Below are positions 10,279 through 53,505 of a stretch of 64,000 bases of DNA, one piece after another (position 1 is the first letter of the stretch; each line of letters starts with the position of its first letter). Source of the stretch: Nocardiopsis alba DSM 43377 (GTDB lineage: Bacteria > Actinomycetota > Actinomycetes > Streptosporangiales > Streptosporangiaceae); NCBI RefSeq assembly GCF_000341225.1, contig NZ_ANAC01000010.1, positions 372,001-436,000 on the forward strand. Direction: 5' to 3'. Position numbers and translations under genes: made by a program. The notes under the pieces were generated by a model. It was not told the DNA's origin and made no database searches. It was given only the letters and a program-made list of their open reading frames with translations.

Positions 10279-12972
<2,694 letters not shown>

Positions 12973-33791: not shown

Positions 33792-35507
33792 TCAGGCCTC
33801 CGGCAGCGGCTCGAACTCCTTGACCGCGTCGATGGCCGGGCCGTGCGGCGTGTTGGCCTCGCGCTCGATCATGATCTCGACCAACACCGGACGAGAGGTG
33901 GCCTTGGCCTCCTTGCGGGCCCACTCCAGGCTGTCCCGGATCTCGGAGGGCTCCCAGACGCGACGCCCGGAGCAGCCGTAGGCCTCCATGAGCTTGACGT
34001 TGTCGGTGCCGTACTCGTCGTAGTGGATGTCCACCTGGTAGTTCATGTCGAACGGGATCGACGCCTGACGGATCAGGCCCAGGTACTCGTTGTTGAGCAT
34101 GATGATGACGTAGGGAACGTCGTACTGGGCGGCGACGGCCAGTTCCTCGACCATGTACTGGAAGCCGTAGTCGCCGACGATGCCCACGACCTCGGCGTCG
34201 GGGTCGGTGTTCTTGAGCGCCTTCTTGACACCGATGGCGGCGGGGATCTCCCAGCCGAGCGGGCCGGCCTGACCACAGATCTGGTAGTGGCGCGGCTTGT
34301 AGGCCTTCTGGTGCTGGCCGCCCCAGATCTGGTAGAGGCCGATCGCGGTGACGAAGTAGGTGTCCTCGTCGAAGACCTCGTTGATCTCCTTGTAGACGCG
34401 CGGCGCCTTGACCGGGACGCTGTCGAAGTCCTCACGACGGGTCAGGGTGGTCTTGAGCTCGCCGACGCGGGAGATCCACGACTCGACCCGAGCCTTGGCG
34501 TTCCGGCGCTTGGCGGCGTTCAGCAGTTCCTGGAGGAACAGCTTGGCGTCGGAGACCACGCCCAGGTCCGGCTCGAAGACACGGCCGATCTGGGTGGCCT
34601 CGATGTCGACGTGGATGAACTTGCGCTCACCGCGGTAGACGTCGATCTGGCCGGTGTGGCGGTCGGCGAAGCGCGCGCCCACGGCCAGGACCAGGTCCGA
34701 CTCCAGGAAGGAGGCGTTGCCGTAGCGCTGGGAGGTCTGGACACCGGTCATACCGGAGTACAGCGGGGAGTCCTCGTCGAAGGAACCCTTGCCCATGAGG
34801 GTGACCTGGACGGGCACCTGGAGGTAGTCGGCGAGCTCGCGCAGCTCGTCGGAGGCCTCGGCCAGGATCACGCCGCCGCCGGCGAGGATGAGCGGACGCT
34901 CGGCCTCCAGCAGCAGGTCGAGGGCCTTCTCGACGCGGGGCAGGTGCGGCTCGACCGTGTTGATCTTGAGCGCGGCGTCCAGCTCGGGGTCGTACTCGAT
35001 GACCTGCTGGGCGACGTCCAGCGGAATGTCGATCAGGACGGGGCCGGGACGACCCTCTTGGGCGATCCGGAAGGCCTCGCGGAAGATCCACGGAGCGGTC
35101 GCGGCCTCCTTGATCTGGACGGCCCACTTGGTGACGGGCTTGGCGATCTCGACGATGTCGACCGCCTGGAAGCCCTCCTTGTCGAGCAGGTCGGTGCGCT
35201 GCTGACCGGTGATGCACACGATCGGGACCGAGTCCGCGATGGCGGTGTACAGACCGGTGATCATGTTGGTGCCGGCGGGACCGGAGGTACCGATCGCCAC
35301 ACCGACCTTGCCGGTGGTGCGCGACCAACCGTCGGCCATGTGGGTGGCGCCCTCTTCGTGGCGGACGGTCAGGTGCTCGATGCCGCCGACGTCCTCCATC
35401 GCCTTGTAGAGCGGCAGGATCGCCGCGCCGGGGCAACCGAAGGCGGTGTCGACGCCTTCGTCCTTGAGGACCTCCACGACCGCGTTCATCGCGGGCATTT
35501 TCGCCAT
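33792..35507 (-). CDS. gcl: Glyoxylate carboligase (tartronate-semialdehyde synthase)
   Basis: 571 residues, a ThDP enzyme joining two glyoxylates into tartronate semialdehyde and CO2. The N-terminal domain has GVDTAFGCPGAAILPLY and VRHEEGATHMADG. In Gcl the usual catalytic Glu of ThDP enzymes is replaced, and the segment here (DTAFGCPGAAI) fits Gcl rather than acetolactate synthase. The C-terminal ThDP motif is GDYGFQYMVEEL...NNEYLG. GAAGGG precedes the ATG at 35507. It is third in hyi-glxR-gcl and handles glyoxylate from ureidoglycolate. Confidence 0.95.
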   Translation of the reverse strand: MAKMPAMNAVVEVLKDEGVDTAFGCPGAAILPLYKAMEDVGGIEHLTVRHEEGATHMADGWSRTTGKVGVAIGTSGPAGTNMITGLYTAIADSVPIVCITGQQRTDLLDKEGFQAVDIVEIAKPVTKWAVQIKEAATAPWIFREAFRIAQEGRPGPVLIDIPLDVAQQVIEYDPELDAALKINTVEPHLPRVEKALDLLLEAERPLILAGGGVILAEASDELRELADYLQVPVQVTLMGKGSFDEDSPLYSGMTGVQTSQRYGNASFLESDLVLAVGARFADRHTGQIDVYRGERKFIHVDIEATQIGRVFEPDLGVVSDAKLFLQELLNAAKRRNAKARVESWISRVGELKTTLTRREDFDSVPVKAPRVYKEINEVFDEDTYFVTAIGLYQIWGGQHQKAYKPRHYQICGQAGPLGWEIPAAIGVKKALKNTDPDAEVVGIVGDYGFQYMVEELAVAAQYDVPYVIIMLNNEYLGLIRQASIPFDMNYQVDIHYDEYGTDNVKLMEAYGCSGRRVWEPSEIRDSLEWARKEAKATSRPVLVEIMIEREANTPHGPAIDAVKEFEPLPEA

Positions 35508-35687: not shown

Positions 35688-36575
35688 CTACTCGCCGCGG
35701 CCGGAGAGCTGCTCGACGATCTTGAGGAGCGCCGAGTGGTCGAGGCCGCCGTGCCCCTGGTTCTTGAGCGCGGCGACGTTCTGGGCGACCTGGGCACCGA
35801 GCGGCACCGCTACGCCGGCGGCGTGGGCGGAGTCGGTGACGATGCGCATGTCCTTGTCGTGCAGGGCGATCCGGAAGCCCGGGGTGAAGTTGCGCTCGCG
35901 CATCCCCTTGCCCTTGCGCTGGAGGACGGTGCTGCCGGCGAGACCGCCGCCGAGGACCTCCAGGCCGGACTCGGTGTCCACACCGTGGGCCTCCAGGAAC
36001 ACCAGGGCCTCGGCGAGGAGCTGGATGTTGCCGGCCACGATGAGCTGGTTGGCGGCCTTGACCGTCTGACCGGAGCCGCTGGGGCCGACCAGGACGGGGG
36101 TGGTGCCCAGGACGTCGAAGACCGGACGGGCCGCGTCGAAGTCCTCCTGGGAACCGCCGACCATGATCGAGAGCTTGGCCTCGATGGCACCGGCCTCGCC
36201 GCCGCTGACCGGGGCGTCCAGGACACGGAAGCCGCGCTCGGCGCCGATGCCGGCGACGGAACGGGCGACGTCCGGGCGGATCGTGCTCATGTCGATGACG
36301 AGCGTGCCGGGCTTGGCGTTCTCGAAGACGCCGCCCTCACCGGCCAGCACGGCCTCGACGTCCGGGGAGTCCGGGACCATCGTGATGACGACCTCGGCGT
36401 CGGCCACGGCCTCGGCGATGCTGCCACCGCGCAGACCGCCCTCGGCGACCAGGGAGTCGACACGCTGGGGGCTGCGGTTGAAGCCGGTGACGGTGTGACC
36501 GGCGCGGACGAGGTTGACGGCCATGGGCAGACCCATGATGCCGAGGCCGATGAAGGCGATCTTCTTCGCGGACAT
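35688..36575 (-). CDS. glxR: 2-hydroxy-3-oxopropionate (tartronate semialdehyde) reductase
   Basis: 295 residues of the beta-hydroxyacid dehydrogenase family. The Rossmann start FIGLGIMGLPMAVNLVRAGH carries the dinucleotide site, with the NADP/NAD choice set by FNRSPQ. The substrate block DAPVSGGEAGAIEAKLSIMVGG and the catalytic Lys in GQTVKAANQLIVAGN follow. It reduces tartronate semialdehyde from Gcl to glycerate. It lies between hyi and gcl in the same direction, completing the glycerate pathway. Confidence 0.95.
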   Translation of the reverse strand: MSAKKIAFIGLGIMGLPMAVNLVRAGHTVTGFNRSPQRVDSLVAEGGLRGGSIAEAVADAEVVITMVPDSPDVEAVLAGEGGVFENAKPGTLVIDMSTIRPDVARSVAGIGAERGFRVLDAPVSGGEAGAIEAKLSIMVGGSQEDFDAARPVFDVLGTTPVLVGPSGSGQTVKAANQLIVAGNIQLLAEALVFLEAHGVDTESGLEVLGGGLAGSTVLQRKGKGMRERNFTPGFRIALHDKDMRIVTDSAHAAGVAVPLGAQVAQNVAALKNQGHGGLDHSALLKIVEQLSGRGE

Positions 36576-36705: not shown

Positions 36706-37503
36706 TCAGCGCAGCCAGCCGAAGCTCTCGGTGGTGGGGACGGTGGGCTTGTACTCCAGGCCCACCAGGCCCTGGTAGCCGCCGGCCTGGGAGGCGCTCA
36801 GCAGCTCGTCGATGGCGAGGTCGCCGGTGCCGGGCTCGCCGCGGCCGGGGGCGTCGGCGATCTGGATGTGACCGAAGGACGCGGCGTGCTCACGGACCAC
36901 GGCGGCGACGTCGTCGCCGTTGACGGCCAGGTGGAAGAAGTCGGCGAGGAGCGCGACGTTCGCGGCGCCGGCCTCCTTGGCCTTGGCGACGAAGGCGAGC
37001 CCTTCCTCGGCGGTCTTGAAGGGGTAGTCCTCGGAGCCGCTGATCGGCTCGATGAGGACGGTGCCGCCGACCTTGGCGACGCCTTCGGCCGCGGCGAGGG
37101 TGTTCTCCAGGGCGATCCGGTCCTGCTCGGCCGGGTCGACGCCCTCCTGCCGCAGGCCGTAGAGGGCGTTGAAGCCGGTGGTCCCGGTGCGCTCGGCGAT
37201 ACCGACGACCACGTCGATGTTGGCGCGGAACTCGGCGGCGCGGTCGGGGTGGGAGAGCACGCCGCGGTCCGGACCCGGGAGCCGGCCGGCGAAGAAGTTC
37301 AGGCCGGTGAGTCGGACGTCCGCCTTCTCGATGGCGCCGACGAAGGCGTCGACCTCGGCCTGGGCGGGCGTGGCGCTCTCGAAGGGCCACCAGAACTCGA
37401 CGGCGTGGAAGCCCGCGTCCCGTGCGGCCTGGGGGCGCTCGTTGACGGGGAGCTCGGTGAACAGCAGGGAGCAGTTCACCGTGTACCCGAGTGTGTGGCT
37501 CAT
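36706..37503 (-). CDS. hyi: Hydroxypyruvate isomerase
   Basis: 265 residues, an AP-endonuclease-2 type TIM barrel. It interconverts hydroxypyruvate and tartronate semialdehyde. Family blocks: NCSLLFTELPVNERPQAA, FHAVEFWWPFE, LTGLNFFAGR, the metal Glu in VLIEPISGSEDYPF, LLADFFHLAVNGDD and HIQIADAPGRGEPGTG. GGAGG precedes ATG at 37503 at good spacing. First gene of the hyi-glxR-gcl unit; a pair of candidate AllR-type sites lies directly upstream at 37524-37559. Confidence 0.94.
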   Translation of the reverse strand: MSHTLGYTVNCSLLFTELPVNERPQAARDAGFHAVEFWWPFESATPAQAEVDAFVGAIEKADVRLTGLNFFAGRLPGPDRGVLSHPDRAAEFRANIDVVVGIAERTGTTGFNALYGLRQEGVDPAEQDRIALENTLAAAEGVAKVGGTVLIEPISGSEDYPFKTAEEGLAFVAKAKEAGAANVALLADFFHLAVNGDDVAAVVREHAASFGHIQIADAPGRGEPGTGDLAIDELLSASQAGGYQGLVGLEYKPTVPTTESFGWLR

Positions 37504-37523: not shown

Positions 37524-37559
37524 TTCCACATTGCGGAAATCAGATTTCGCTTTAAGGAA
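37524..37559. promoter_or_regulatory. Paired AllR-type operator upstream of hyi
   Basis: TTCCACATTGCGGAA at 37524-37538 and TTTCGCTTTAAGGAA at 37545-37559, start-to-start spacing 21 bp. Both follow the consensus TTYCG-N5-CGGAA found at two further promoters. They lie 20-56 bases before the hyi start, so binding would block the hyi-glxR-gcl promoter. Confidence 0.68.
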
Positions 37560-37779: not shown

Positions 37780-37815
37780 ATCCGTAATACGGAATCCGCA
37801 ATCTGCTCTACGAAA
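37780..37815. promoter_or_regulatory. Paired AllR-type operator upstream of uraD
   Basis: ATCCGTAATACGGAA at 37780-37794 and ATCTGCTCTACGAAA at 37801-37815 are reverse-strand copies of the same 15-bp motif, again 21 bp apart. The second ends 23 bases before the uraD ATG. Confidence 0.66.
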
Positions 37816-37838
37816 TGCACGGAGCCACGGGAGTACAC

Positions 37839-38396
37839 ATGCCCGAGACCACCCCGGACGCGTCGGGGGCGGCCGTCCCCGACCCGGGACTGGCCCGCCT
37901 GAACCGGCTGTCCAAGGAGGAGCTGCGCACCGAACTCGCGCAGTGCCTCAACGTGGACCGCTGGGTGGAGGCGCTCGCCTCCGAAGCGCCCTTCGCCGAC
38001 AGGGAGACCCTGCTCGCCAGTGCCGACGGGCACGCCCGAGCGATCACCTCCGAAGAGGCCGCCACCGCCCTGGCCCGCCACCCCCGCATCGGGGAGAAGG
38101 CCGAGGGCGAGGACACCGAGTCCGCGTGGTCGCGCGGTGAACAGTCCGCGTTCGCGGCCGACACCGACGACGCCTCCGCTCGTGTCCAGCGGATCTTCAC
38201 CTTCGCCCAGGGCGAGTACGAAGGCCGCTTCGGCCAGATCTACCTCGTCTGCGCGAGCGGACGGACCGGCCGCGAACTCCTCGCCGACCTGGTCGCCCGT
38301 CTGGACAACGACACCGAGACCGAACTCTCCGTCGTCGGCGAGGAACTGCGCAAGATCGCCGGGCTGCGCCTGGTCAAACTCCTGGAGGCAGCATGA
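37839..38396 (+). CDS. uraD: OHCU decarboxylase
   Basis: 185 residues. It converts 2-oxo-4-hydroxy-4-carboxy-5-ureidoimidazoline to S-allantoin, the last step of urate oxidation. The all-helical fold is recognisable from LNRLSKEELRTELAQCLNV and the active-site HPRIGEKAEGEDTESAWSRGEQS pattern, then FTFAQGEYEGRFGQIYLVCASGR. ATG at 37839 has GGGAG five bases upstream and is preferred over ATG at 37815. Its stop overlaps the next start (ATGA). Confidence 0.94.
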   Translation: MPETTPDASGAAVPDPGLARLNRLSKEELRTELAQCLNVDRWVEALASEAPFADRETLLASADGHARAITSEEAATALARHPRIGEKAEGEDTESAWSRGEQSAFAADTDDASARVQRIFTFAQGEYEGRFGQIYLVCASGRTGRELLADLVARLDNDTETELSVVGEELRKIAGLRLVKLLEAA

Positions 38397-38737
38397 GCCA
38401 CGTGACCACACACGTCCTCGACGCCGCGCTGGGCAGCCCCGCCCGCGACGTCCCCGTCCGCCTGGAGGCCGCCGCCGACCGCGAGCGCACCTCGTGGAAG
38501 CCGGTCGCCGAGGGCCGCACCAACGATGACGGCCGTGTCCCCGACTTCGGACCCGAGCGGCTTCAGGCCGGGTACTACCGGGTCGTGTTCGACACCGAGG
38601 CCTACTTCACCGCGACCGGGCAGAAGGGGTTCTACCCCGAGGTCACCATCGTGTTCGACCTCGCCGACGAGGACTCGCACTACCACGTGCCGCTCCTCCT
38701 GAGCCCGTTCGCCTACTCGACCTACCGGGGCTCCTAG
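38393..38737 (+). CDS. uraH: 5-hydroxyisourate hydrolase (transthyretin-like)
   Basis: 114 residues. It hydrolyses 5-hydroxyisourate, the uricase product, to OHCU. The hallmarks are the N-terminal HVLDAALGSPA with the first active-site His, the TNDDGRVPDF region, HYHVPLLLSPFAYSTYRGS at the end and the C-terminal tetrapeptide YRGS that defines HIU hydrolases against transthyretin. Coupled to uraD by ATGA at 38393-38396. Confidence 0.95.
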   Translation: MSHVTTHVLDAALGSPARDVPVRLEAAADRERTSWKPVAEGRTNDDGRVPDFGPERLQAGYYRVVFDTEAYFTATGQKGFYPEVTIVFDLADEDSHYHVPLLLSPFAYSTYRGS

Positions 38738-38984
38738 CGGTACGGACGCCCCACGGGACCTGGCTCACCCCGTGACCGGCGTCCTCCCGCCCCGGTGAAA
38801 GCGACATCCGGACCAAGGAGGAGATCCAGGCAGAACACCCGACCCCAGTCCCCCCACATCTTCGAGTGCGTGACAGGTCCTTCCGCATGACCACAGCGGT
38901 CCTCCCTCATACGCACACTGCGCAGGCCGAGGCACATGGCGGCGCAAGCGATGAAAAGAATCCACATGGATGGAGTTCACCCTG

Positions 38985-39881
38985 ATGGGCATCAAGCTCG
39001 GAGACAACCAGTACGGCAAGGCCGAGGTCCGTCTCGTCCACATCAACCGCGACACCGACGTCCACCGGATCAAGGACGTCAACGTCACCTCCCAGCTCCG
39101 CGGGGACCTGGAGGAAGTCCACACCATCGGTGACAACGGCACGTGTCTGCCGACCGACACCCAGAAGAACACCGTCTACGCCAAGGCCCGCGAGTGGGGC
39201 GGCGTCGGCGCGATCGAGGACTTCGCCCTGCGTCTGGCCCGCCACTTCGTGGACGAGCACGACTACGTGCACGGCGCCCGCCAGGAGATCGAGGAGTACT
39301 CCTGGGACCGGATCGACACCTCCAGCGGCCCGCACGACCACGCGTTCTCCCGCAACGGCGCCGAGACCCGCAACACCATCGTCAACAAGGACGGTGACAA
39401 GGAGTGGGTGGTCTCCGGATTCGAGGGCCTGACCGTCCTCAAGTCCACCGGCTCGGAGTTCCACGGCTTCCCCAAGACCCGGTACACGACTCTTCAGGAG
39501 ACCACCGACCGGATCCTGGCCACCGACGTCGCCGCCCGCTGGCGCTACGTCGGCACCGACCACGACTTCGACAAGACCTACGCCTCCGTGCGCGCGCTGT
39601 GCCTCGAGGCCTTCGCCGAGACCCACAGCCTCGCCCTCCAGCAGACGCTGTACGCGATGGGCAAGGCCGTCCTGGAGGCCCACCCGGAGATCGCGGAGAT
39701 CCGCTTCTCCATGCCCAACAAGCACCACTTCCTCGTGGACCTGTCCTCGTTCGACCTGGACAACCCGAACGAGGTCTTCTTCGCCGCCGACCGGCCCTAC
39801 GGCAAGATCGAGGCCGTCGTCCAGCGTGACGACGCCCCCGAGGCCGGCGACGCCTGGAAGACCGTCCCGGGCTTCCTCTAA
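38985..39881 (+). CDS. Urate oxidase (uricase)
   Basis: 298 residues, two tunnelling-fold halves. It oxidises urate with O2 to 5-hydroxyisourate and peroxide without a cofactor. Blocks: LGDNQYGKAEVRLVHINRDTD with the active-site Lys/Thr region, TDTQKNTVYAKAREW (TDxxKN signature), GFEGLTVLKSTGSEFHGFP (substrate Phe), and SMPNKHHFLVDLSSF. ATG at 38985 is preferred because GGAG lies nine bases upstream and known uricases begin at this point; ATG at 38970 has no ribosome site. A 247-base gap separates it from uraH, so it may have its own promoter. Confidence 0.95.
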   Translation: MGIKLGDNQYGKAEVRLVHINRDTDVHRIKDVNVTSQLRGDLEEVHTIGDNGTCLPTDTQKNTVYAKAREWGGVGAIEDFALRLARHFVDEHDYVHGARQEIEEYSWDRIDTSSGPHDHAFSRNGAETRNTIVNKDGDKEWVVSGFEGLTVLKSTGSEFHGFPKTRYTTLQETTDRILATDVAARWRYVGTDHDFDKTYASVRALCLEAFAETHSLALQQTLYAMGKAVLEAHPEIAEIRFSMPNKHHFLVDLSSFDLDNPNEVFFAADRPYGKIEAVVQRDDAPEAGDAWKTVPGFL

Positions 39882-40250: not shown

Positions 40251-41765
40251 ATGTCGAACAGTCCGTCCGCGAAGGACTCGGCCACAACAACCGCCACGAC
40301 CCCCGCTCGCCCCGAGGACGAGAAGCTGCCCGCGCGGCTTCTGCTCGTCTACGGACTCCAGCACATTCTCACCATGTACGCCGGTGCGGTGGCACCGGCA
40401 CTCGTAGTAGGCGCCGCCGCTGGGCTCGCGAACGACCCCGCCGCCATGGGAATCCTCGTCAGCGGTGCGCTTCTCGTGGCGGGTATCGCCACTCTTCTCC
40501 AGACCGTGGGACACCGCCGACTCGGCGCGCAGCTGCCGATCGTGGTCGGCACCTCCTTCGTCCCCGTCAGCGCCATCACCGCCCTGGCCGCCGGTCAGGG
40601 CGGTGAGAACCTGCCCATCGCCTTCGGCGCCTCGATGGCCGCCGGTGTCTTCGGGCTCATCCTGACCCCCTTCTTCGGTCAGCTCATCCGCTTCTTCCCC
40701 CCGATCGTCACCGGAACGATCATCACCGTGATCGGCATCAGCCTGATGCCGGTGGCCGCCCGCTGGATCATGGACGGGTCGACCACCACGTTCAACGGTG
40801 AGCAGGTCGACGCCGCTCCGATGGCCAACCTGGGTCTGGCCGGCCTGACCCTCGCCGTCATCCTCATCGGTTCTCGACTCTTCCCGGGCATCTGGGGTCG
40901 TCTGTCGATCCTTCTCGGTCTGCTCGTCGGCACCCTCGTCTCGATCCCGCTGGGCATGGCCGACTTCAGCCGTGTCGGCGAGGCCGACATCGTGTTCAAC
41001 CCGGCCTCGGTGTTCTACTTCGGTGCCCCGCAGTTCCAGGTCACCGCGATCATCACCATGTGCATCATCATGCTGGTGGTGCTCACCGAGGGCGCGTCCC
41101 ACATCATCGCGGTCGGTGAGATCACCGGCACCAAGATCGACGCCAAGCGCATCTCGGCCGGTCTGCGCGCCGACGTGAGCGGTTCGATCATCGGTCCGAT
41201 CTTCAGCGCCACCCCGACCAGCTCCTTCGCCCAGAACATCGGTCTGCTGGCCCTGACCGGTATCCGCAGCCGCTACGTGGTCGCCACCGGCGCCGCCATC
41301 CTTCTCGCCCTGGGCATGTTCCCCGTGCTCGGTGGCGTGATGGCCGCCATCCCGACCCCCGTGCTGGGCGGTGCCGGTCTGGTGCTGTTCGGCAGCGTCG
41401 CCTCCAGCGGTGTGAAGACGCTGGCCAAGGTGGACTTCACCAACAACCTCAACCTGATCCTGGTGGCGTCCTCGATCGGTGTGGCCATCATCCCGCTGGC
41501 CTACCCGACCTTCTACGCCTTCCTGCCCGAGTCGGTCGAGCTCATCGCCCACTCGGGCATCATCGGTGCCGCGATCGTGTCGATCCTGTTGAACATCTGC
41601 TTCAACGTGATCGGTCGACCGGCCTCCGGTACGCCCGCCGACATCGACCAGGCCGACATCGGTACCGCCGGCCCCGGTGAGGCCAAGTACACCGATCAAG
41701 CCGGAGCCACCTACCGGAGCAGCGACTCCGACCGTCCCGAGGCCGACCGGACCCCCGGCCGGTAG
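40251..41765 (+). CDS. NCS2 family purine (urate/xanthine) permease
   Basis: 504 residues with about 12-14 membrane helices. The NCS2 fold is marked by LLLVYGLQHILTMYAGAVAPALVVG, GTSFVPVSAI, LTEGASHIIAVGEITG (the substrate-binding helix Glu) and the signature QNIGLLALTGIRSRYV. The hydrophilic C-terminal tail is about 55 residues. NCS2 carriers of this branch import xanthine, urate or uracil with a cation; location in a urate operon favours urate or xanthine. ATG at 40251 has a weak GG-rich site. It has its own terminators. Confidence 0.93.
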   Translation: MSNSPSAKDSATTTATTPARPEDEKLPARLLLVYGLQHILTMYAGAVAPALVVGAAAGLANDPAAMGILVSGALLVAGIATLLQTVGHRRLGAQLPIVVGTSFVPVSAITALAAGQGGENLPIAFGASMAAGVFGLILTPFFGQLIRFFPPIVTGTIITVIGISLMPVAARWIMDGSTTTFNGEQVDAAPMANLGLAGLTLAVILIGSRLFPGIWGRLSILLGLLVGTLVSIPLGMADFSRVGEADIVFNPASVFYFGAPQFQVTAIITMCIIMLVVLTEGASHIIAVGEITGTKIDAKRISAGLRADVSGSIIGPIFSATPTSSFAQNIGLLALTGIRSRYVVATGAAILLALGMFPVLGGVMAAIPTPVLGGAGLVLFGSVASSGVKTLAKVDFTNNLNLILVASSIGVAIIPLAYPTFYAFLPESVELIAHSGIIGAAIVSILLNICFNVIGRPASGTPADIDQADIGTAGPGEAKYTDQAGATYRSSDSDRPEADRTPGR

Positions 41766-41850: not shown

Positions 41851-41909
41851 CTTCGTTCTCGGAACCGTTTCGAGCACGCCACCGAATCCGTTAAGCGGAG
41901 GTGAATGGT

Positions 41910-42848
41910 ATGTCTGTGAAGATGACCGACTGGGATCTGCGCAAACTCCGTGTGCTCCGCACCCTCCAGGAGCTCGGCACCGTCCGGGCCACCGCCGAGG
42001 CCCTGTCCATGACCCCCTCCGCCGTCTCCCAGCAGCTCTCCTCCCTGTCCCAACAGGTGGGCGTGGCCCTGCTGGAGGCGCACGGTCGGCGGGTCCGGCT
42101 GACCGACGCCGCCCACGTGCTGCTGCGCCACACCGACGTGGTCCTGGCACAGTTGGAGCGGGCCGAGGCCGAACTCGACGGGTTCGTGCGGGGCGAGGCC
42201 GGACGGGTCCGGATCGGGGCCTTCGCCACCGCCATCCCGACCCTGGTGGTCCCGACCCTGAAGATCCTGCGGCGTACCCGCCCGGATCTGCGCACCCGGG
42301 TGCACCAGGCCGACGCCGCCGAGGTGTACGAACTGTTGGCCGCGGGTGAGATCGACATCGGTCTGTCGCTGGCCGCCCAGGCCCCCAGTGACCAGGATGG
42401 ACGCTACGAGCGCGGCGAGCTTCTCGCCGACCCCCTGGACGTGGCGTTGCCCGTCCAGCACCGGCTGGCCTCGGCCCCGGCGTTGGGTCTGCGCGACCTG
42501 GCCGACGAACCGTGGATCTACGGGGCGTCGGGGCCGTGGCGGGACATCACCATCGCCGCCTGCGCGCAGGCCGGTTTCGTTCCGGAACAGGGGCACGTGG
42601 CCTCGGACTGGCGGGCCATCCTCGACATGGTCGCCGCCGGGCTGGGCGTGGCCCTCATCCCCCGCCTGGCCGCGGCGGCCGACACACCGGAGGTGGCCCT
42701 GCGCACCCCCCAGATCGACCAGCCGCGCCGTCACGTGGTCTGGGCCGTGCGGGCCGGGGCGGGGCAGCGACCACAGATCGAGGCGACGCTTCGGGCCCTG
42801 GCCGAGACCGCGTCGACCCTGCGAGCCGCGAATGTTCAGTCCAGATGA
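41910..42848 (+). CDS. LysR-family transcriptional regulator
   Basis: 312 residues. The N-terminal winged helix is clear (LRKLRVLRTLQELGTVRATAEAL then MTPSAVSQQLSSLSQQVG). The effector domain follows, with FATAIPTLVVPTLKILRR and GEIDIGLSLA. ATG at 41910 (MSVKMTDWDL) has GGAGG eight bases upstream; GTG at 41901 overlaps that site. It precedes allantoicase by 87 bases in the same direction, and the gap holds an ATGATCAT palindrome near 42855. A role in controlling allantoicase or the permease is plausible but unproven; effector unknown. Confidence 0.9.
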   Translation: MSVKMTDWDLRKLRVLRTLQELGTVRATAEALSMTPSAVSQQLSSLSQQVGVALLEAHGRRVRLTDAAHVLLRHTDVVLAQLERAEAELDGFVRGEAGRVRIGAFATAIPTLVVPTLKILRRTRPDLRTRVHQADAAEVYELLAAGEIDIGLSLAAQAPSDQDGRYERGELLADPLDVALPVQHRLASAPALGLRDLADEPWIYGASGPWRDITIAACAQAGFVPEQGHVASDWRAILDMVAAGLGVALIPRLAAAADTPEVALRTPQIDQPRRHVVWAVRAGAGQRPQIEATLRALAETASTLRAANVQSR

Positions 42849-42935: not shown

Positions 42936-44063
42936 ATGAGCGGGGCCCAGCCCTTCGATCCTCGTGCCTACAACGCCCAGCCCTACCAGGGCGGTGACCC
43001 CTACGCCGACTACAAGGACACCAAGCTCGACTTCTCGGGCCTGGTCGACCTCGCCGACCGGCGTCTGGGCGGCAGCGTCGTCGCGGCCAACGACGAGTTC
43101 TTCGCCCACCGCGAGAACCTCCTCAAGCCCGAGCCCGGCAAGTTCGACCCGCACGCCTTCGGCCACAAGGGCAAGGTCATGGACGGCTGGGAGACCCGCC
43201 GTCGCCGCGGTGTCAGCGCCGAGCAGCCGCACCCGACCTCCGAGGACCACGACTGGGCGCTCATCCGCCTGGCCCTGCCCGGCGTGATCCGCGGCGTGAA
43301 CATCGACACCGCCCACTTCCGCGGCAACCAGCCCACCGAGGTCTCCCTCGAGGCGACCCACGTCGAGGGCACCCCCACGACCGAGGAGCTGCTGGCCGCC
43401 GAGTGGACCGAGCTGGTCCCCCGTACCCCCGCGTACGGCCACGCCGCCAACGCCTTCGAGATCTCCTCGACCCGTCGCTGGACGCACCTGCGCCTCAAGC
43501 AGTACCCGGACGGCGGCATCGCCCGTCTGCGCGTGTACGGCGAGCAGGTCGCCGACCCGACCTGGCTGTCCGCCCAGGGCTCCTTCGACGTCGCGGCCCT
43601 GCTCAACGGCGGTGTCGTCGAGGACGCCTCGGACCGTTTCTTCTCCCCGCCGGAGAACATCATCACCCCGGGCCGTTCCCACAAGATGGACGACGGCTGG
43701 GAGAACCGCCGTCGCCGTGACAACGGCAACGACTGGGTGGTCTTCCGTCTGACCGCGCAGGCGAGCGTCCGCGCGATCGAGGTCGACACCGCCTACCTCA
43801 AGGGCAACTCCGCCGGATGGATCACCATCCTGGGCCGTGACGCCCACTCCGACAAGCCGGACGAGTGGTTCGAGATCGTGGGCCGCACCGCCCTCGAGCC
43901 CGACAGCCCGCACCGCTTCGTGCTGGACGCCCCGGCGACCGTCACCCACGTGCGCACCGACGTCTTCCCCGACGGAGGCATGTCGCGTCTGCACGTCTAC
44001 GGTTCGCTGACCGAGACCGGCACCGCCGACCTCAAGGCCCGTTGGGAGGCCGCGCGCGGCTGA
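42936..44063 (+). CDS. alc: Allantoicase
   Basis: 375 residues, two repeats of the jelly-roll allantoicase domain. Repeat 1 has LADRRLGGSVVAANDEFFA and KVMDGWETRRRRG; repeat 2 has VVEDASDRFFSPPENIITPGR and KMDDGWENRRRRD. Both keep the RLHVYG-type strand ending. It hydrolyses allantoate to S-ureidoglycolate and urea. ACAGGAG lies 5-11 bases before ATG 42936. Terminated by the hairpin at 44089-44124. No ureidoglycolate lyase gene accompanies it. Confidence 0.95.
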   Translation: MSGAQPFDPRAYNAQPYQGGDPYADYKDTKLDFSGLVDLADRRLGGSVVAANDEFFAHRENLLKPEPGKFDPHAFGHKGKVMDGWETRRRRGVSAEQPHPTSEDHDWALIRLALPGVIRGVNIDTAHFRGNQPTEVSLEATHVEGTPTTEELLAAEWTELVPRTPAYGHAANAFEISSTRRWTHLRLKQYPDGGIARLRVYGEQVADPTWLSAQGSFDVAALLNGGVVEDASDRFFSPPENIITPGRSHKMDDGWENRRRRDNGNDWVVFRLTAQASVRAIEVDTAYLKGNSAGWITILGRDAHSDKPDEWFEIVGRTALEPDSPHRFVLDAPATVTHVRTDVFPDGGMSRLHVYGSLTETGTADLKARWEAARG

Positions 44064-44213: not shown

Positions 44214-45563
44214 TCAGGAGCGCGCGATCATGCGACCGGAGACGCTGTCGGCGGTGATCTCGACACCGCGCAGGAGGGTGCGACGCACCCGGCCCTTGAG
44301 GTCGGCGCCGTCGTAGGCGCTCACCGGGTTGCGGTGCGCCAGGGAGCGCGCCTCCACGTGGAAGGCCTCCTCCGGAGCGAACACCGCCAGGTCGGCGTCG
44401 TTCCCGACCGCGATGGAACCCTTGCCCTCGACCCCGGCCACGGCCGCGGGAGAGGCGGACATCCACCGCACCACCTCGGCGAGCGGCACGCCACGGCCGG
44501 ACGCCTCGGTCCACACGGCCGCGAAGCCCACCTGGAGACCGGCCACGCCGCCCCAGGCGGTACCGAAGTCACCGGTGTCCAGGTGCTTCAGGTCCGGGGT
44601 GCTCGGCGAGTGGTCGGTGACCACGCAGTCGATCAGCCCGTCGCGCAGCGCCCGCCACAGCAGGTCGCGGTTGGCCGAGTCTCGGATCGGCGGACAGCAC
44701 TTGTAGCTGGTGGCCCCCGCCGGGACCTCCTCGGCCGCCAGGGTGAGGTAGTGCGGGCAGGTCTCGACCGTGAGAGCCACCCCCTCCTCCTTGGCCCGGG
44801 CGATCAGCGGCAGCGCCGACGCGCTCGACAGGTGCAGGATGTGCGCCCGCACCCCGGTACGCCGGGCCGTCTCGATCACCAGGGAGATCGCCGCGTTCTC
44901 CGCCTCGTCCGGACGGGAGGCCAGGAAGTCGGCGTACTCACGACCCGAGGCCGCGGGCGCCGAGTCCAGCACCTTCGGGTCCTCGGCGTGCACGATCAGC
45001 CGGCCACCGAAGGCCTGGATGGCGGTGGCGGCAGCCTCCAGACGCTCGGCGGTCAGGTGGCCGAACTCGTCCACGCCCGAGGGCGAGAGGAACGCCTTGA
45101 ACCCGTACACGCCCTCCGACCACAGGTCGGACAGCACGCCCGTGGTGTCCGGACCGGTGTTCTCCGGCACGGCACCGCCCCAGAAGCCCACGTCCACGGC
45201 GAGCTTGCCCTCGGCCGCGGCCCGCTTGGCCTTGAGGCCCTCGGTGGTGGTCGTGGGGGGAACGCTGTTGAGGGGCATGTCCACGATCGTGGTCACACCG
45301 CCCAGGGCGGCCGCGCGCGTGGCGCTGGCGAAACCCTCCCACTCGGTGCGGCCGGGCTCGTTGACGTGCACGTGGCTGTCGACCAGCCCGGGCAGCAGGA
45401 CCTCGTCCTCGGCCAGACGCAGCTCGCGGTCGGCGTCGACCGTGGCGTCCACGCCGTCGAGGACGTCGGTGATCCAGCCACCGTCCACCACCACGCTGAC
45501 GGGACGCTCCCCCTCAGGGGTGACGGCGCGGGCGGCCCGCACCACCAGTACGTGTTCTGCCAT
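44214..45563 (-). CDS. allB: Allantoinase
   Basis: 449 residues, an amidohydrolase-family TIM barrel opening the allantoin ring to allantoate. Binuclear metal site: His pair in [18 protein letters not shown], the carboxylated Lys in YGFKAFLS, His in LIVHAED and HILHLSSA, and Asp in VTDHSP. PHYL and CCPPIRD are also typical. GGAG lies ten bases before ATG 45563. The gene begins two bases after the stop of the DUF6986 gene, so the two form one operon from the promoter near 46850-46950. Confidence 0.95.
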
Positions 45564-45565
45564 CC

Positions 45566-46849
45566 CTACTTCTTCTCCTGTCCGGCCCGGCGGGTGGCGA
45601 GGTTCTCGATGCTCGCGGCGTCGGTCCCGCAGGCCTCGACCACCTCAGTCTCCTCCAGCGCGCCACAGCGCAGGCCACCGGCCAACACCGAGGCCAGCGC
45701 CTGGGCGGTGGCGGGCTCGTCCATCACGTTGCCGGAGGCCTGGCCCAGGTAGGCCTTGAGTCGGGCGGCGGCCGGGGCGAAGGCCTCGCGGTAGAACGCG
45801 TAGGTGGCCAGGAAACGGATGGTGAGCTGGTTCGGGTGCAGGTCCCAGCCCTGGTAGTAGCCGCGCTCCAGCGAGCGACGGATCAGGTCGGCGTGCAGCC
45901 TCCAGGCCGAGTGGACCTCCTGACGGGTGCCGACCGGCAGGATGTTGCTACCGCCGTCGGACAGCCACACGCCGGTGCCGGCGGCGGCCACCTGCATGAC
46001 GGCCTTGGCGTGGTCCGCGGCCGGGTGGGCCAGGCTCTGGTACGCGGCGGTGATACCGCAGGAGGCGCTGTAGTCGTAGGTGCCGTAGTGCAGGGCGGTG
46101 ACCCGACCCTCGCCGGCCTGGATCATCCGCGCGACCGCGGCGGTGCCGTCGGTCAGCAGGATCGACTGCGGGGTCTCGATCTGGAGCTCGAAGCCCAGAC
46201 GCCCGGCCGGAAGACCGAAGCGCTCCTCCAGGCGGCCGCTCAGCCAGGTCATGGCCTCGACCTGCTCCACCGAGGTGATCTTGGGCAGGGTGAGCACCAG
46301 GTTCTCCGGGAGGGAGCCGTGCTCGTCCAGAAGGGTCTGGAGGAAGAGGCCGAGCGTACGCACGCCGCGGTGACGGCCGGGGGCCTCCATGCCCTTCATG
46401 CGGATACCGAAGTAGGGGGTGGCCTCCCCGTTCCTCAGGTCGGCGGCGAACGCGCGGGCGACGGCGCGCGCGTCGGCGTCCTCGGCCTCGTCACCGGGGT
46501 CGCCGTAGCCGTCCTCGAAGTCGGCGCGCAGGTCCTCGATGGGCTCCCGGGTGAGCTTCTCCCGGACCCGGGGCAGGGCGTCGGCGACGGCCTCTTCGCT
46601 CAGGCCGGTGGCCTCGGCCAGGTCGGAGGCCTTGGGGGCGAACTCCTCCAGCGCTTCCAGGGCCTTCTTGCCCCAGTCGGTGGCCAGGCCGGCGCCGACC
46701 TTGTCGGCGGGGACGTAGACGCTGTGGATGGGCTGGCGACCACCGTTGTTGCCCGGGTACTCCCGTGCGAGGCGCTCGTCGGCCTCGGCCAGGCGGGTGT
46801 CGAGTTCGGTGGCCAGGTCGGTCAGACCGGACGGGATGTCGCTCGCCAC
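45566..46849 (-). CDS. DUF6986 / CitE-HpcH-like aldolase superfamily protein
   Basis: 427 residues. The C-terminal 300 residues look like a PEP/pyruvate-type TIM barrel related to CitE and Hpc[20 protein letters not shown] (Arg strand), [17 protein letters not shown], the metal Glu in [14 protein letters not shown] and the metal Asp in [23 protein letters not shown] near the end matches the closing strand. The metal ligands are intact, so it should be active in an aldol, Claisen or lyase-type reaction. It is the first gene of an operon with allantoinase, next to the AllR-like regulator and under a paired operator. Actual substrate unknown; ureidoglycolate or glyoxylate chemistry is my inference. 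GAGGAGG precedes GTG 46849. Confidence 0.8.
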
Positions 46850-46907: not shown

Positions 46908-46943
46908 TTTCTACATGCGGATATTAACTTCTGCTATTCGGAA
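46908..46943. promoter_or_regulatory. Paired AllR-type operator upstream of the DUF6986-allB operon
   Basis: TTTCTACATGCGGAT at 46908-46922 and TTCTGCTATTCGGAA at 46929-46943, 21 bp apart, 59-94 bases upstream of the DUF6986 start. Same motif and spacing as the pairs at 37524 and 37780. Confidence 0.66.
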
Positions 46944-47015: not shown

Positions 47016-47030
47016 TTTCGTATTGCAGAA
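47016..47030. promoter_or_regulatory. Single AllR-type operator upstream of the IclR gene
   Basis: TTTCGTATTGCAGAA, one of the best matches to the shared motif, 28-42 bases before the regulator's start, as expected for autoregulation. A weak reverse copy lies 21 bp to the left at 46995-47009. Confidence 0.6.
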
Positions 47031-47057: not shown

Positions 47058-47879
47058 ATGGGAGCACGACCCTTGTCAGCCTCACAGACCCCCCCTATGG
47101 ACCAACCCCGCAGCACCGTGGAGACGTCCCGTCGTCCCGGTGGCGTCCAGTCCCTCGATCGCGCGTTCTCCCTCCTGGAGATCATGGCCGAGCAGGGCGG
47201 CGAGGCCTCCTTGAGCCAACTCGCCGACTCCTCCGGACTCCCGCTGCCCACCATCCACCGGATCATCCGGACCCTGGTCGGCAACGGCTACGTGCGCCAG
47301 CTCCCCTCCCGCCGCTACGCCCTGGGCCCCCGCCTGATCGGACTCGGTGACAAGGCCGCCCAGATGCTCGGCACCTGGGCCCGCCCCCACCTGGCCCAAC
47401 TCGTCGAGGACCTCGGAGAGACCGCCAACCTCGCCATGCTCGACGGCGACAAGGTCATCTACGTCGCCCAGGTCCCCTCACCCCACGCCATGCGCATGTT
47501 CACCGAGGTCGGACGCCGCGTCCTGCCCCACTCCGCCGGCGTCGGCAAGGCCCTCCTGTCCCAGCTCAGCGACGAAGAGGCCCTGGCCACCGTCCGACGC
47601 ACCGGCATGCCCGCCGCCACCGACCGCACCATCACCGACCCCGACGCCTTCCTCGCCGAACTCCACCGCATCCGCGAGACCGGCTACGCCATCGACGACG
47701 GCGAACAGGAGGTCGGCGTCCGCTGCGTCGCCGTCCCCGTCAAGGACGCCCCCTCCGGCATGGCCGTCTCCGTCTCCGGCCCCGAGGCCCGCGTGGGATG
47801 GGACTTCGTCGACCGGGCCGCGCCCATCGTGCAGAACTGCGCCACCGTCCTGGCCATCGACCTCAACAACCAGAGCTGA
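47058..47879 (+). CDS. allR: IclR-family regulator, AllR-like
   Basis: 273 residues. The N-terminal winged helix (VQSLDRAFSLLEIMAEQGG, then LADSSGLPLPTIHRIIRTL) is followed by the IclR effector domain (LGETANLAMLDGDKVIYVAQV, HSAGVGKALLS, GYAIDDGEQEVGVRCVAVPV). AllR-type members repress allantoin and glyoxylate genes and release DNA on binding a pathway intermediate. Four motif sets at the cluster's promoters support this role here. The start is uncertain: ATG at 47058 lacks a ribosome site, whereas TTG at 47073 has GGGAG eight bases upstream. Confidence 0.88.
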   Translation: MGARPLSASQTPPMDQPRSTVETSRRPGGVQSLDRAFSLLEIMAEQGGEASLSQLADSSGLPLPTIHRIIRTLVGNGYVRQLPSRRYALGPRLIGLGDKAAQMLGTWARPHLAQLVEDLGETANLAMLDGDKVIYVAQVPSPHAMRMFTEVGRRVLPHSAGVGKALLSQLSDEEALATVRRTGMPAATDRTITDPDAFLAELHRIRETGYAIDDGEQEVGVRCVAVPVKDAPSGMAVSVSGPEARVGWDFVDRAAPIVQNCATVLAIDLNNQS

Positions 47880-51330: not shown

Positions 51331-53505
51331 TCAGTCTGCCCGGTCCGGGCCGTCCTCGGTGCGGTCCGTACGCGGGATGTCGCCGGAGGGGCGCCGTCCA
51401 CGCCGAGGTCGGGACCGGCCGGCCCCGTCGCCGTTCACGCCCTGGGCCGCGTCGTAGCGACCGTAGGCGTCGACGATCTGGCCCACGAGCCGGTGCCGGA
51501 CGACGTCCTCACTGCTCAATCGGCAGAAGGCGATGTCGTCGATGTCACGCAGGATGTTCTCGATGGTCCGGAGCCCGCTGGTCTGTCCACCGGGCAGGTC
51601 CACCTGGGTGACGTCACCGGTGACCACGATCTTGGAGCCGAAGCCGAGCCGGGTGAGGAACATCTTCATCTGCTCGGGCGAGGTGTTCTGCGCCTCGTCC
51701 AAGATGATGAACGAGTCATTGAGGGTGTTGTGCGTGAGCAGGAAGTCCTCGGTGACGTAGAGGGAATCCTCCGCGGCCACCTGGATGCACACGCACTCCT
51801 CGCTCCCCGCCGGTTCGATGGCGTCGACGAAACGCATCGGCCGCCCGCCCCCGGTCGCGTCGTACTTCTCCTGCTTGCGCCGCAGACGGAAGGGCCGAAC
51901 GCCCTCCGGCAAACGCAGGTCGAGCACGTACGCGTCCTGCCGGTGGAACACCTCCCGGCCCCTCGCCAGACCAGGGGAACGTCCCTCGGCCGGCCTGGAA
52001 CGCTCGTAGACCACGCCACCGAGAGACCTCGTCAGGAAGGTCACCGCGTCACGCAGCCGAGGCGAAGCCGTGCCGTACTGGACACGGCAGGTGCGTCCCG
52101 CCTGCGTCACCGGGCCCCCGTCCGAGTCGAGGAGACCCTGGAGCAGGGCCAGTCGTACCTCGGCGGTGTTGTACAGGTACTCGTCCGGGACGAACTTCGT
52201 ACCCGAGGTGGCCCCGCACAGGCCCAGATCGCGCATGATCGCGGTCACCGGGTTGGCGATGGTGATCACGTCACCGGGCTCGCTCTCGCGGTTGAGCACG
52301 TAGTCCACGTCGGTCTTGCGCCGTACCCGCACGCCGGGAAGGAGGCTGTCGAGCGCCTCGGCCAGCTCCGGGTCCCGGGTGGCGAAACTCGGGGTCGTCG
52401 ATCCCGTGAGGCATCCGTCCCCGAGGAGGAGACCGAGCGCGTAGGCGTCCATGGGCACCTCCCGCTCCGGGAAGGCGACGGGTTCACTGAGGAGCGGGAG
52501 CTCGTACTTGCGGTAGTGGGCCGTACGCAGCCCGCTCTCGGCGATCTCCTTGGCGGTGAGCACCCGGGGCGGCTTCCCCCGACGGGCGTCGTCCCGGGTC
52601 CGAACCGTCCACAGGTGATCCTCGGAGCAGAGGGTGGACGCCCCGTCCTGGGAGGAGAACCGGTAGATCGGCTTCTCTCCCTGCGGGTACACGCCGATCA
52701 CCGGGGTGGGCCTCCCGTCGGAGCCCACCACCAGGTCGCCGACCCGCAGATCCCCGATGGGCCGGAAACCCTCCGGGGTCAACACCTTGGTCCGCAAGGG
52801 CTGCGCCCGCCCGCGCATGTACGCCAGGGGGGCGACCTCGATGGTGCCGGCGGCCATCAGCTTGGGGATGGAGTCCGGGTCCAACATGTCGTGCAGGGCG
52901 TCGTAGAGCGGCCGCAGGTAGGGGTCGATCTTGTCGTAGAGGGTGCCCGGAAGGAATCCCAGACGCTCACCGGCCTCGACCGCCGGACGCGTGAGGATGA
53001 TCCGGTTGACCTCCTTGTCCTGGAGGGCCTTGACCGCCTTGGCCATCGCCAGGTAGGTCTTACCGGTCCCCGCCGGGCCGATGCCGAAGACCACGGTGCT
53101 GCGGTCGATGGTGTCGACGTAGCGCTTCTGGTTCAGCGTCTTGGGGCGGATCGTCTTGCCCCGGTTCGACAGGATGTTGGTGGTGAGCACGTCCGCGGGG
53201 CGCTCGTTCCCGGGCGAGCGCAGCATGTGGATCATGCGCCCGATCGTGTCGGGGGTGATGTGCGTGCCGCTCTTGGCGAGCTCGATCAGCTCCTCCACGA
53301 GGCGGACCACCACGGCGGTCTCCTCGGGGGTGCCCGTGATCGTGAACTCGTTGCCGCGGACGTGGATGTCACTGTCGAAGGCCCGCTCCAGGGCCCGGAG
53401 GAGTTCGTCTCCCGAGCCGAGCAGACCGACCATCGTATGTTCGTCCGGCACCACGACCTTGACCTGGGTCTCCTGGTCCTGGTGCGCGTGATTTGACTCG
53501 GCCAT
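51331..53505 (-). CDS. phoH: PhoH family ATPase, interrupted by an intein
   Basis: 724-residue precursor, 364 after splicing. An N-terminal KH-like region (HTMVGLLGSGDELLRALE) precedes the PhoH P-loop: Walker A GIGPAGTGKTYLAMAKAV at about 141, then LTRPAVEAGERLGFLPG, and APLAYMRGR, where the intein enters. After it come TLNDSFIILDEAQNTSPEQ (Walker B) and GDVTQVDLP. PhoH/YbeZ is an RNA-associated ATPase acting with YbeY. The C-terminal 35 residues are Arg/Gly/Asp-rich and probably disordered. Without splicing the Walker B is separated from Walker A by 360 residues. Confidence 0.95.
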   Translation of the reverse strand: MAESNHAHQDQETQVKVVVPDEHTMVGLLGSGDELLRALERAFDSDIHVRGNEFTITGTPEETAVVVRLVEELIELAKSGTHITPDTIGRMIHMLRSPGNERPADVLTTNILSNRGKTIRPKTLNQKRYVDTIDRSTVVFGIGPAGTGKTYLAMAKAVKALQDKEVNRIILTRPAVEAGERLGFLPGTLYDKIDPYLRPLYDALHDMLDPDSIPKLMAAGTIEVAPLAYMRGRAQPLRTKVLTPEGFRPIGDLRVGDLVVGSDGRPTPVIGVYPQGEKPIYRFSSQDGASTLCSEDHLWTVRTRDDARRGKPPRVLTAKEIAESGLRTAHYRKYELPLLSEPVAFPEREVPMDAYALGLLLGDGCLTGSTTPSFATRDPELAEALDSLLPGVRVRRKTDVDYVLNRESEPGDVITIANPVTAIMRDLGLCGATSGTKFVPDEYLYNTAEVRLALLQGLLDSDGGPVTQAGRTCRVQYGTASPRLRDAVTFLTRSLGGVVYERSRPAEGRSPGLARGREVFHRQDAYVLDLRLPEGVRPFRLRRKQEKYDATGGGRPMRFVDAIEPAGSEECVCIQVAAEDSLYVTEDFLLTHNTLNDSFIILDEAQNTSPEQMKMFLTRLGFGSKIVVTGDVTQVDLPGGQTSGLRTIENILRDIDDIAFCRLSSEDVVRHRLVGQIVDAYGRYDAAQGVNGDGAGRSRPRRGRRPSGDIPRTDRTEDGPDRAD
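51727..52806 (-). other. Class 3 (WCT) intein with LAGLIDADG endonuclease inside PhoH
   Basis: 360 residues, inserted between RGR and TLND of PhoH. Block A is AQPLRTKVLTPEGF, so residue 1 is Ala and not a nucleophile. Block B is SEDHLWTV (His64, Trp66), block F is ECVCIQVAAEDS (Cys340 at F4), and the end is FLLTHN (Thr358, His359, Asn360) followed by Thr +1. Trp66/Cys340/Thr358 are the three residues that define class 3 inteins, in which a block F Cys starts splicing. Two endonuclease motifs are visible, ALGLLLGDGCLTG near 123 and LLQGLLDSDGGPV near 220. Confidence 0.94.

Follow-up and report, generated by a model that had tools for sequence, protein, structure and literature searches.

The DUF6986 gene of a Nocardiopsis alba purine cluster

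We analysed a 64,000-nucleotide stretch of the Nocardiopsis alba DSM 43377 genome (contig NZ_ANAC01000010.1, positions 372,001 to 436,000; hereafter the window), which carries a purine cluster containing a gene for a protein of the DUF6986 family. Genes for OHCU decarboxylase, hiuH, urate oxidase, allantoicase and allantoinase were found together with gcl, glxR and hyi, in agreement with a sequence-only reading of the same DNA that had described a route from urate to ureidoglycolate followed by Gcl and GlxR. As that reading also stated, the DUF6986 gene lies two bases upstream of allB; the last base of its stop codon is 45566 and the first base of allB is 45563. The reading had found neither a ureidoglycolate lyase nor a malate synthase, and had offered DUF6986 as an enzyme that either cleaves ureidoglycolate to glyoxylate and urea or condenses glyoxylate with an acyl-coenzyme A (acyl-CoA) or a keto acid. 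AllA, whose presence elsewhere had been named as an objection to the first proposal, was looked for by profile search and was absent from the whole N. alba genome. Malate synthase is likewise missing from the cluster, but not from the genome: a canonical malate synthase A (MS-A; G000:C10:454407-456011) exceeds the TIGR01344 cut-off with 796 bits and is encoded on the same contig, at a distance of 35.6 kb from DUF6986 and 18.4 kb past the window end. Because of this gene, and because malate synthase adjoins DUF6986 in other clusters, malate synthase was given up as the leading candidate for the missing function. The AllC model gave two M20-type matches on other contigs (195 and 178 bits; cut-off 598), and one AllD-type match was found on another contig (108 against a cut-off of 496).

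The window protein matched PF22484 (DUF6986) over profile positions 1-407 of 408 with 595 bits (cut-off 27, E 8.4e-179), which bears out its earlier assignment to this aldolase-superfamily family. The HpcH/HpaI signal in Pfam was only sub-threshold, and neither AllA (PF04115) nor malate synthase (PF01274) matched at E <= 0.01. TIGR01344 was not over its cut-off, no NCBIfam equivalog cut-off was reached, and a PHROGs search gave no match. For two relatives (G039 and G160), PF01274 scored 20-23 bits, below its cut-off of 26.4. A phmmer search of the PDB with the window protein alone found no matches; the DUF6986 profile clearly matched malyl-CoA lyase, and reached malate synthase A at E 0.51, ranked under unrelated chance matches at E 0.15-0.34. 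The barrel fold (predicted) and the metal-binding Glu and Asp of the CitE/malyl-CoA lyase/malate synthase superfamily are both present in DUF6986. Glu225 and Asp259, already described as intact, were invariant in 95 of 95 aligned DUF6986 proteins and aligned with the metal residues of 5ugr and 3cuz; the alignment with MS-A had E 7e-4 but an hhalign probability of only 26%. Arg150 was also invariant; it lies outside all residue-level alignments, 75 residues before Glu225, and the corresponding Arg-to-Glu spacing in malate synthase H is 74 residues (numbering of PMC3112382). Asp377 was invariant, and position 378 was Glu in 93 sequences and Asp in two. Pro339, the counterpart of the adenine-capping proline of malate synthases, was replaced in 8 of the 95.

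Of five plasmid copies, three are annotated 'aldolase/citrate lyase family protein' and two are unannotated. Long open frames in L083, L084, L085 and L044 suggested fusion proteins; these were rejected, since Pfam found DUF6986 only (plus an HpcH/HpaI overlap in L044), and the extra N-terminal stretch in L083 and L085 overlaps uox in another frame.

Distribution, gene neighbourhoods and regulation

The distribution of DUF6986 was examined in an even sample of 148 Actinomycetota genomes, with full-length proteins defined by E below 1e-100 to PF22484. Some match was present in 57 genomes, 16 full-length and 41 partial matches of the wider superfamily. AllB was over cut-off in 28 of the 148 genomes, including all 16 with full-length DUF6986 (Fisher p 2.8e-14). 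A larger set of 58 DUF6986 genomes, biased toward the clade of the window protein, added to these 16 a further 42, identified from 43 loci chosen among the 80 best relatives. AllA, in a search that left out L042, was found in one of the 58 genomes and was absent from 57; it was found in two of the 148 sampled genomes. The match in G148 (71 bits) was rejected as isolated, a reference BLAST nearby finding only xanthine-dehydrogenase-type subunits. Those in G033 and G119 were also isolated, and neither genome has full-length DUF6986, AllB over cut-off, allantoicase or AllE.

Allantoicase was present in 29 of the 58 genomes and AllE, the (S)-ureidoglycine aminohydrolase, in 28 at its curated cut-off (weaker cupin matches, seen in another 16 of 72 genomes, were excluded). 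The two never occurred together, and one of them was present in every genome except G167; among the evenly sampled DUF6986 genomes, 16 of 16 had one or the other, the same picture as in the larger set. Both enzymes yield ureidoglycolate, so DUF6986 tracks this compound irrespective of the enzyme that forms it. The 12 AllB-positive sampled genomes without full-length DUF6986 had no AllE over cut-off, and allantoicase was found in two, G034 and G076. The allantoicase frame of G076 stops 161 bases from a contig end, so that this genome, counted as a DUF6986 miss, may reflect an assembly gap. In a DUF6986 tree of 57 of the 58 genomes (G146 left out), well supported branches forced at least three changes of partner between allantoicase and AllE; one such case is Georgenia, with allantoicase, as the sister of Isoptericola, with AllE. 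Urease alpha, found in 33 of the 58 genomes, is neutral with respect to function.

We propose, with a probability of about 0.7, that DUF6986 proteins are AllA analogues, namely metal-dependent urea-lyases acting on ureidoglycolate (the reaction of EC 4.3.2.3), with the malyl-CoA lyase/malate synthase barrel as their scaffold. The computed basis is the fold prediction, conservation of the metal-site residues and the tight tie to ureidoglycolate-forming enzymes where AllA is absent; the genomic context of the EC 4.3.2.3 reaction, allantoicase or AllE without AllA, was found at 57 of 58 on each count.

At least one ureide gene lay within the fetched flanks in 81 of 94 DUF6986 loci, in a count that dropped weak matches (below 45% identity for allB, glxR, hyi and lysR, and below 38% for pbuX). 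Within 250 nt on the same strand were AllE (26 loci), aceB (17), allB (16) and malic enzyme (14). The Arthrobacter locus L052 has the order malic enzyme, aceB, DUF6986, AllE, which parallels the pathway from ureidoglycine via ureidoglycolate, glyoxylate and malate to pyruvate. In L083, from a distant family, a compact operon runs allB, allantoicase-OHCU decarboxylase fusion, hiuH and uox and ends at DUF6986, and no glyoxylate-using gene was found in its 17 kb. A Tsukamurella plasmid has DUF6986 adjoining a gene annotated bifunctional allantoicase/(S)-ureidoglycine aminohydrolase, in Paenarthrobacter pCZY a PuuE-like allantoinase (279 bits, not reaching the cut-off of 425) is divergent to DUF6986, and in Nocardia farcinica allantoicase comes after it. 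The proposed cleavage of ureidoglycolate to glyoxylate and urea is well supported by distribution and gene context. In Planosporangium, the cluster L040:2006-11248 (genome G167) combines an M20 carbamoylase, two carbon-nitrogen hydrolases, a D-hydantoinase, an L-serine ammonia-lyase, aceB and DUF6986; its substrates may be 5-hydroxyhydantoin, whose breakdown gives ureidoglycolate, and 5-hydroxymethyl-hydantoin, which would further suggest a use of DUF6986 on ureidoglycolate from 5-hydroxyhydantoin. Separately, five DUF6986 loci (L072, L059, L060, L064 and L067) carry a second, distinct CitE/RipC-like gene; the one at L072:12170-13084 encodes 304 aa, against 427 aa for DUF6986, and scores 105 bits with NF038242, below the cut-off of 375.

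The closest relatives are Nocardiopsis species, several with the entire arrangement. The intergenic region between DUF6986 and the IclR-type regulator contains two inverted operator-like sites 70 nt apart, the paired operator noted earlier, and both were recognisable in 9 of 11 aligned related regions (one is lacking in L014, and the L080 region breaks off inside one). A pattern made from the two sites matched six times in the window, both source sites included, against 0.59 expected in shuffles. Two of the four further matches fall at the divergent hyi/OHCU-decarboxylase intergenic region; a single regulator therefore probably governs both arms of the cluster. The other two, at 11926 and at 35058 within gcl, do not fit this picture. 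The features are collected in Table 1. Elsewhere in the window (51331-53505, minus strand), a PhoH-like protein of 724 aa combines two PhoH segments with a LAGLIDADG domain (residues 449-508) that resembles an intein inserted in PhoH.

Table 1. Features of the purine cluster in the window, and proposed active-site residues of the DUF6986 protein.
Feature	Position	Strand	Basis or remark
DUF6986 protein, proposed ureidoglycolate lyase	45566..46849	minus	427 aa, GTG start, open frame
DUF6986 proposed active site	Arg150, Glu225, Asp259, Trp335, Asp377/Glu378		
allB, allantoinase	44214..45563	minus	TIGR03178 547 bits, cut-off 357.85
Allantoicase (alc), forms ureidoglycolate and urea	42936..44063	plus	PF03561 297 bits
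IclR-family regulator, AllR-like, divergent from DUF6986	47058..47879	plus	PF09339 and PF01614; NCBIfam IclR-type models match, none over cut-off
Operator-like site 1, regulator/DUF6986 intergenic region	46929..46943	plus	Inverted repeat arm; present in 10/11 related regions
Operator-like site 2, inverted partner of site 1	47016..47030	minus	Whole in 10/11 related regions, truncated in L080
Operator-like site upstream of hyi	37524..37538	minus	2 mismatches to pattern
Operator-like site, start of OHCU decarboxylase gene	37801..37815	plus	2 mismatches to pattern
OHCU decarboxylase	37815..38396	plus	PF09349 138 bits
5-hydroxyisourate (HIU) hydrolase, hiuH	38393..38737	plus	Named from translation and homologues in related clusters, not from a profile
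Urate oxidase	38970..39881	plus	TIGR03383 351 bits
Xanthine/urate permease	40251..41765	plus	TIGR03173 435 bits
LysR-family regulator	41901..42848	plus	PF03466, PF00126
Hydroxypyruvate isomerase-like (hyi)	36706..37503	minus	TIGR03234 238 bits, below cut-off 353
Tartronate semialdehyde reductase (glxR)	35688..36575	minus	TIGR01505 368 bits, over cut-off
Glyoxylate carboligase (gcl)	33792..35507	minus	NF008431 908 bits, over cut-off

The proposed ureidoglycolate lyase weighed against other explanations

Several observations weigh against a ureidoglycolate lyase. To our knowledge, no C-N lyase is known in the CitE/malyl-CoA lyase/malate synthase superfamily. Genome G034 (L099, L100) has AllB and two allantoicase places but neither full-length DUF6986 nor AllA; therefore ureidoglycolate is handled another way there, by another solution or by unaided decay. 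Conversely, G167 (L040) has DUF6986 with neither allantoicase nor AllE. Since the tree included only DUF6986-bearing genomes, it shows changes of partner and cannot show losses of DUF6986. Moreover, M20-type matches below the AllC cut-off occur in 43 of the 58 genomes, N. alba among them, and a ureidoglycolate amidohydrolase may be among these enzymes, for which only the AllC model was searched; AllD-type sub-cut-off matches were found in 19 of the 60 genomes searched. Thirteen of the 94 loci lack a ureide gene, eight of them Streptomyces-type loci with DUF6986 unlinked. In Nonomuraea (L112:7441-11089), a 38%-identical homologue lies beside an FAD/NAD oxidoreductase with an AMP-binding enzyme two genes upstream, no ureide gene was found near it, and a divergent function is possible. 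On the Gordonia polyisoprenivorans plasmid p174 (L109:7543-13895), a PaaI-type thioesterase gene overlaps the DUF6986 start, with urease genes after it; this thioesterase and the Nonomuraea AMP-binding enzyme hint at CoA chemistry in divergent members. Lastly, the active-site residue set is equally expected of a CoA-dependent malate synthase, and the lid motif 'DEPAT', which lies beyond the hhalign range, resembles the malate synthase 'MEDAAT'.

The M20 matches, together with the divergent homologues in Nonomuraea and the Streptomyces-type loci, would suit a DUF6986 that is merely co-regulated with ureide genes and serves an unrelated branch, ureidoglycolate being removed by an M20 amidohydrolase or by spontaneous decay. 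However, such a passenger would not be expected to track AllB in 16 of 16 genomes and allantoicase or AllE in 57 of 58, and 15 of the 58 genomes are without any AllC-model match, which makes this explanation very unlikely. No match to any of AllA, AllC or AllD was found in 12 of the 58; M20- or AllD-type matches short of the cut-off are present in the remaining genomes. Among the 28 AllE-type genomes, 10 had no match to the AllC model; this would be consistent with the NCBIfam name 'bifunctional allantoicase/(S)-ureidoglycine aminohydrolase', a model that two tested AllE proteins also reach.

The lid motif, the shared fold and metal residues and the Gordonia thioesterase bear instead on the principal alternative, that DUF6986 removes glyoxylate from the ureide pathway as a so far unrecognised malate synthase or malyl-CoA lyase, with ureidoglycolate split otherwise or decaying by itself. 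Malic enzyme within 250 nt in 14 loci would suit this as well, as would G039 and G126, the two genomes of the 58 without another malate synthase (the match in G039 is DUF6986 itself). Yet malate synthase was over cut-off in the other 56, including N. alba, and in the 17 loci with aceB within 250 nt a second malate synthase would be redundant. In addition, PF01274 reached DUF6986 only below cut-off, in G039 and G160, the adenine-capping proline is replaced in some members, and the ureidoglycolate gap would stay unexplained. We therefore consider this alternative unlikely, and the condensation of glyoxylate with acyl-CoA put forward in the sequence-only reading is disfavoured. Nor would that reaction be new to the superfamily, as had been suggested, since malate synthase H and malyl-CoA lyases already belong to it (PMC3112382, PMC3832036).

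A different reaction on ureidoglycolate or glyoxylate, such as condensation of glyoxylate with pyruvate, hydrolysis to ammonia, or a transureido or racemising activity, must also be considered, as the association identifies a pathway step and not a measured reaction. The CitE/HpcH superfamily includes pyruvate- and glyoxylate-type aldolases. Against this, the recurrent neighbours in the 94 loci are ureide genes, aceB and malic enzyme, with no recurrent gene for an aldol product seen, and no further glyoxylate gene was found near DUF6986 at the end of the L083 operon; we regard such a reaction as quite unlikely.

Proposed reaction and comparison with known systems

As a ureidoglycolate lyase, DUF6986 would hold Mg2+ or Mn2+ through Glu225 and Asp259, and the metal would chelate the carboxylate and hydroxyl of ureidoglycolate as it does glyoxylate in malate synthase H. 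Arg150 would stabilise both the ureido carbonyl and the oxyanion. Breakage of the C-N bond would resemble a retro-aldol cleavage, and an acid of the C-terminal lid (Asp377/Glu378) would protonate the departing urea. Ureidoglycolate, HOOC-CH(OH)-NH-CO-NH2, can be viewed as the aza-analogue of the malyl thioester head group, HOOC-CH(OH)-CH2-CO-S-CoA, so that urea would replace acetyl-CoA. In N. alba the glyoxylate formed would pass to Gcl and GlxR; other genera would process it with malate synthase A and malic enzyme. With somewhat less assurance, we lean towards the broader view that the superfamily gave rise to a C-N lyase that needs no CoA and treats ureidoglycolate as 'aza-malyl-CoA', and that this is the general ureidoglycolate lyase of ureidoglycolate-forming Actinomycetota, unrelated to AllA/DAL3, closing a gap noted in print for Arthrobacter. 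For Arthrobacter Rue61a, growth on allantoin is reported in the publication of its genome, which calls the post-allantoate genes 'not obvious' (PMC3534580). We found no publication naming DUF6986 or any ureidoglycolate enzyme of the aldolase, citrate lyase, HpcH or malyl-CoA type in a search that mostly lay outside the subscription literature. Most sampled genomes of the large phylum Actinomycetota are without AllA; if correct, the proposal would identify the gene responsible there for the final release of nitrogen when purines and allantoin are used. It would also retire a DUF whose annotated plasmid copies carry only a generic name, and would be an example of a C-C lyase site that came to cleave C-N bonds through an isosteric swap of urea for the acetyl thioester.

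The ureidoglycolate lyases described in the accessible part of PMC3793230 are AllA/DAL3 and a Burkholderia protein of disputed role. DUF6986 would share with AllA/DAL3 (PF04115) the reaction and the pathway position, whereas AllA is nickel-dependent according to the same source and DUF6986 would have an Mg/Mn-type Glu-Asp site. CitE/RipC-type proteins belong to the same superfamily as DUF6986 but to a different family. Malate synthase H of Haloferax volcanii (3oyx, 3oyz, 3pug) has the metal residues of DUF6986 and the fold predicted for it; compared with this enzyme and with malate synthase A (3cv2, 3cuz, 3cux), DUF6986 differs in staying below the PF01274 cut-off and in coexisting with malate synthase A. 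Malyl-CoA lyases (Rhodobacter sphaeroides 4l9y/4l9z; Methylobacterium extorquens 5ugr) are 18-19% identical to DUF6986, and their leaving group is acetyl-CoA, whereas that proposed for DUF6986 is urea.
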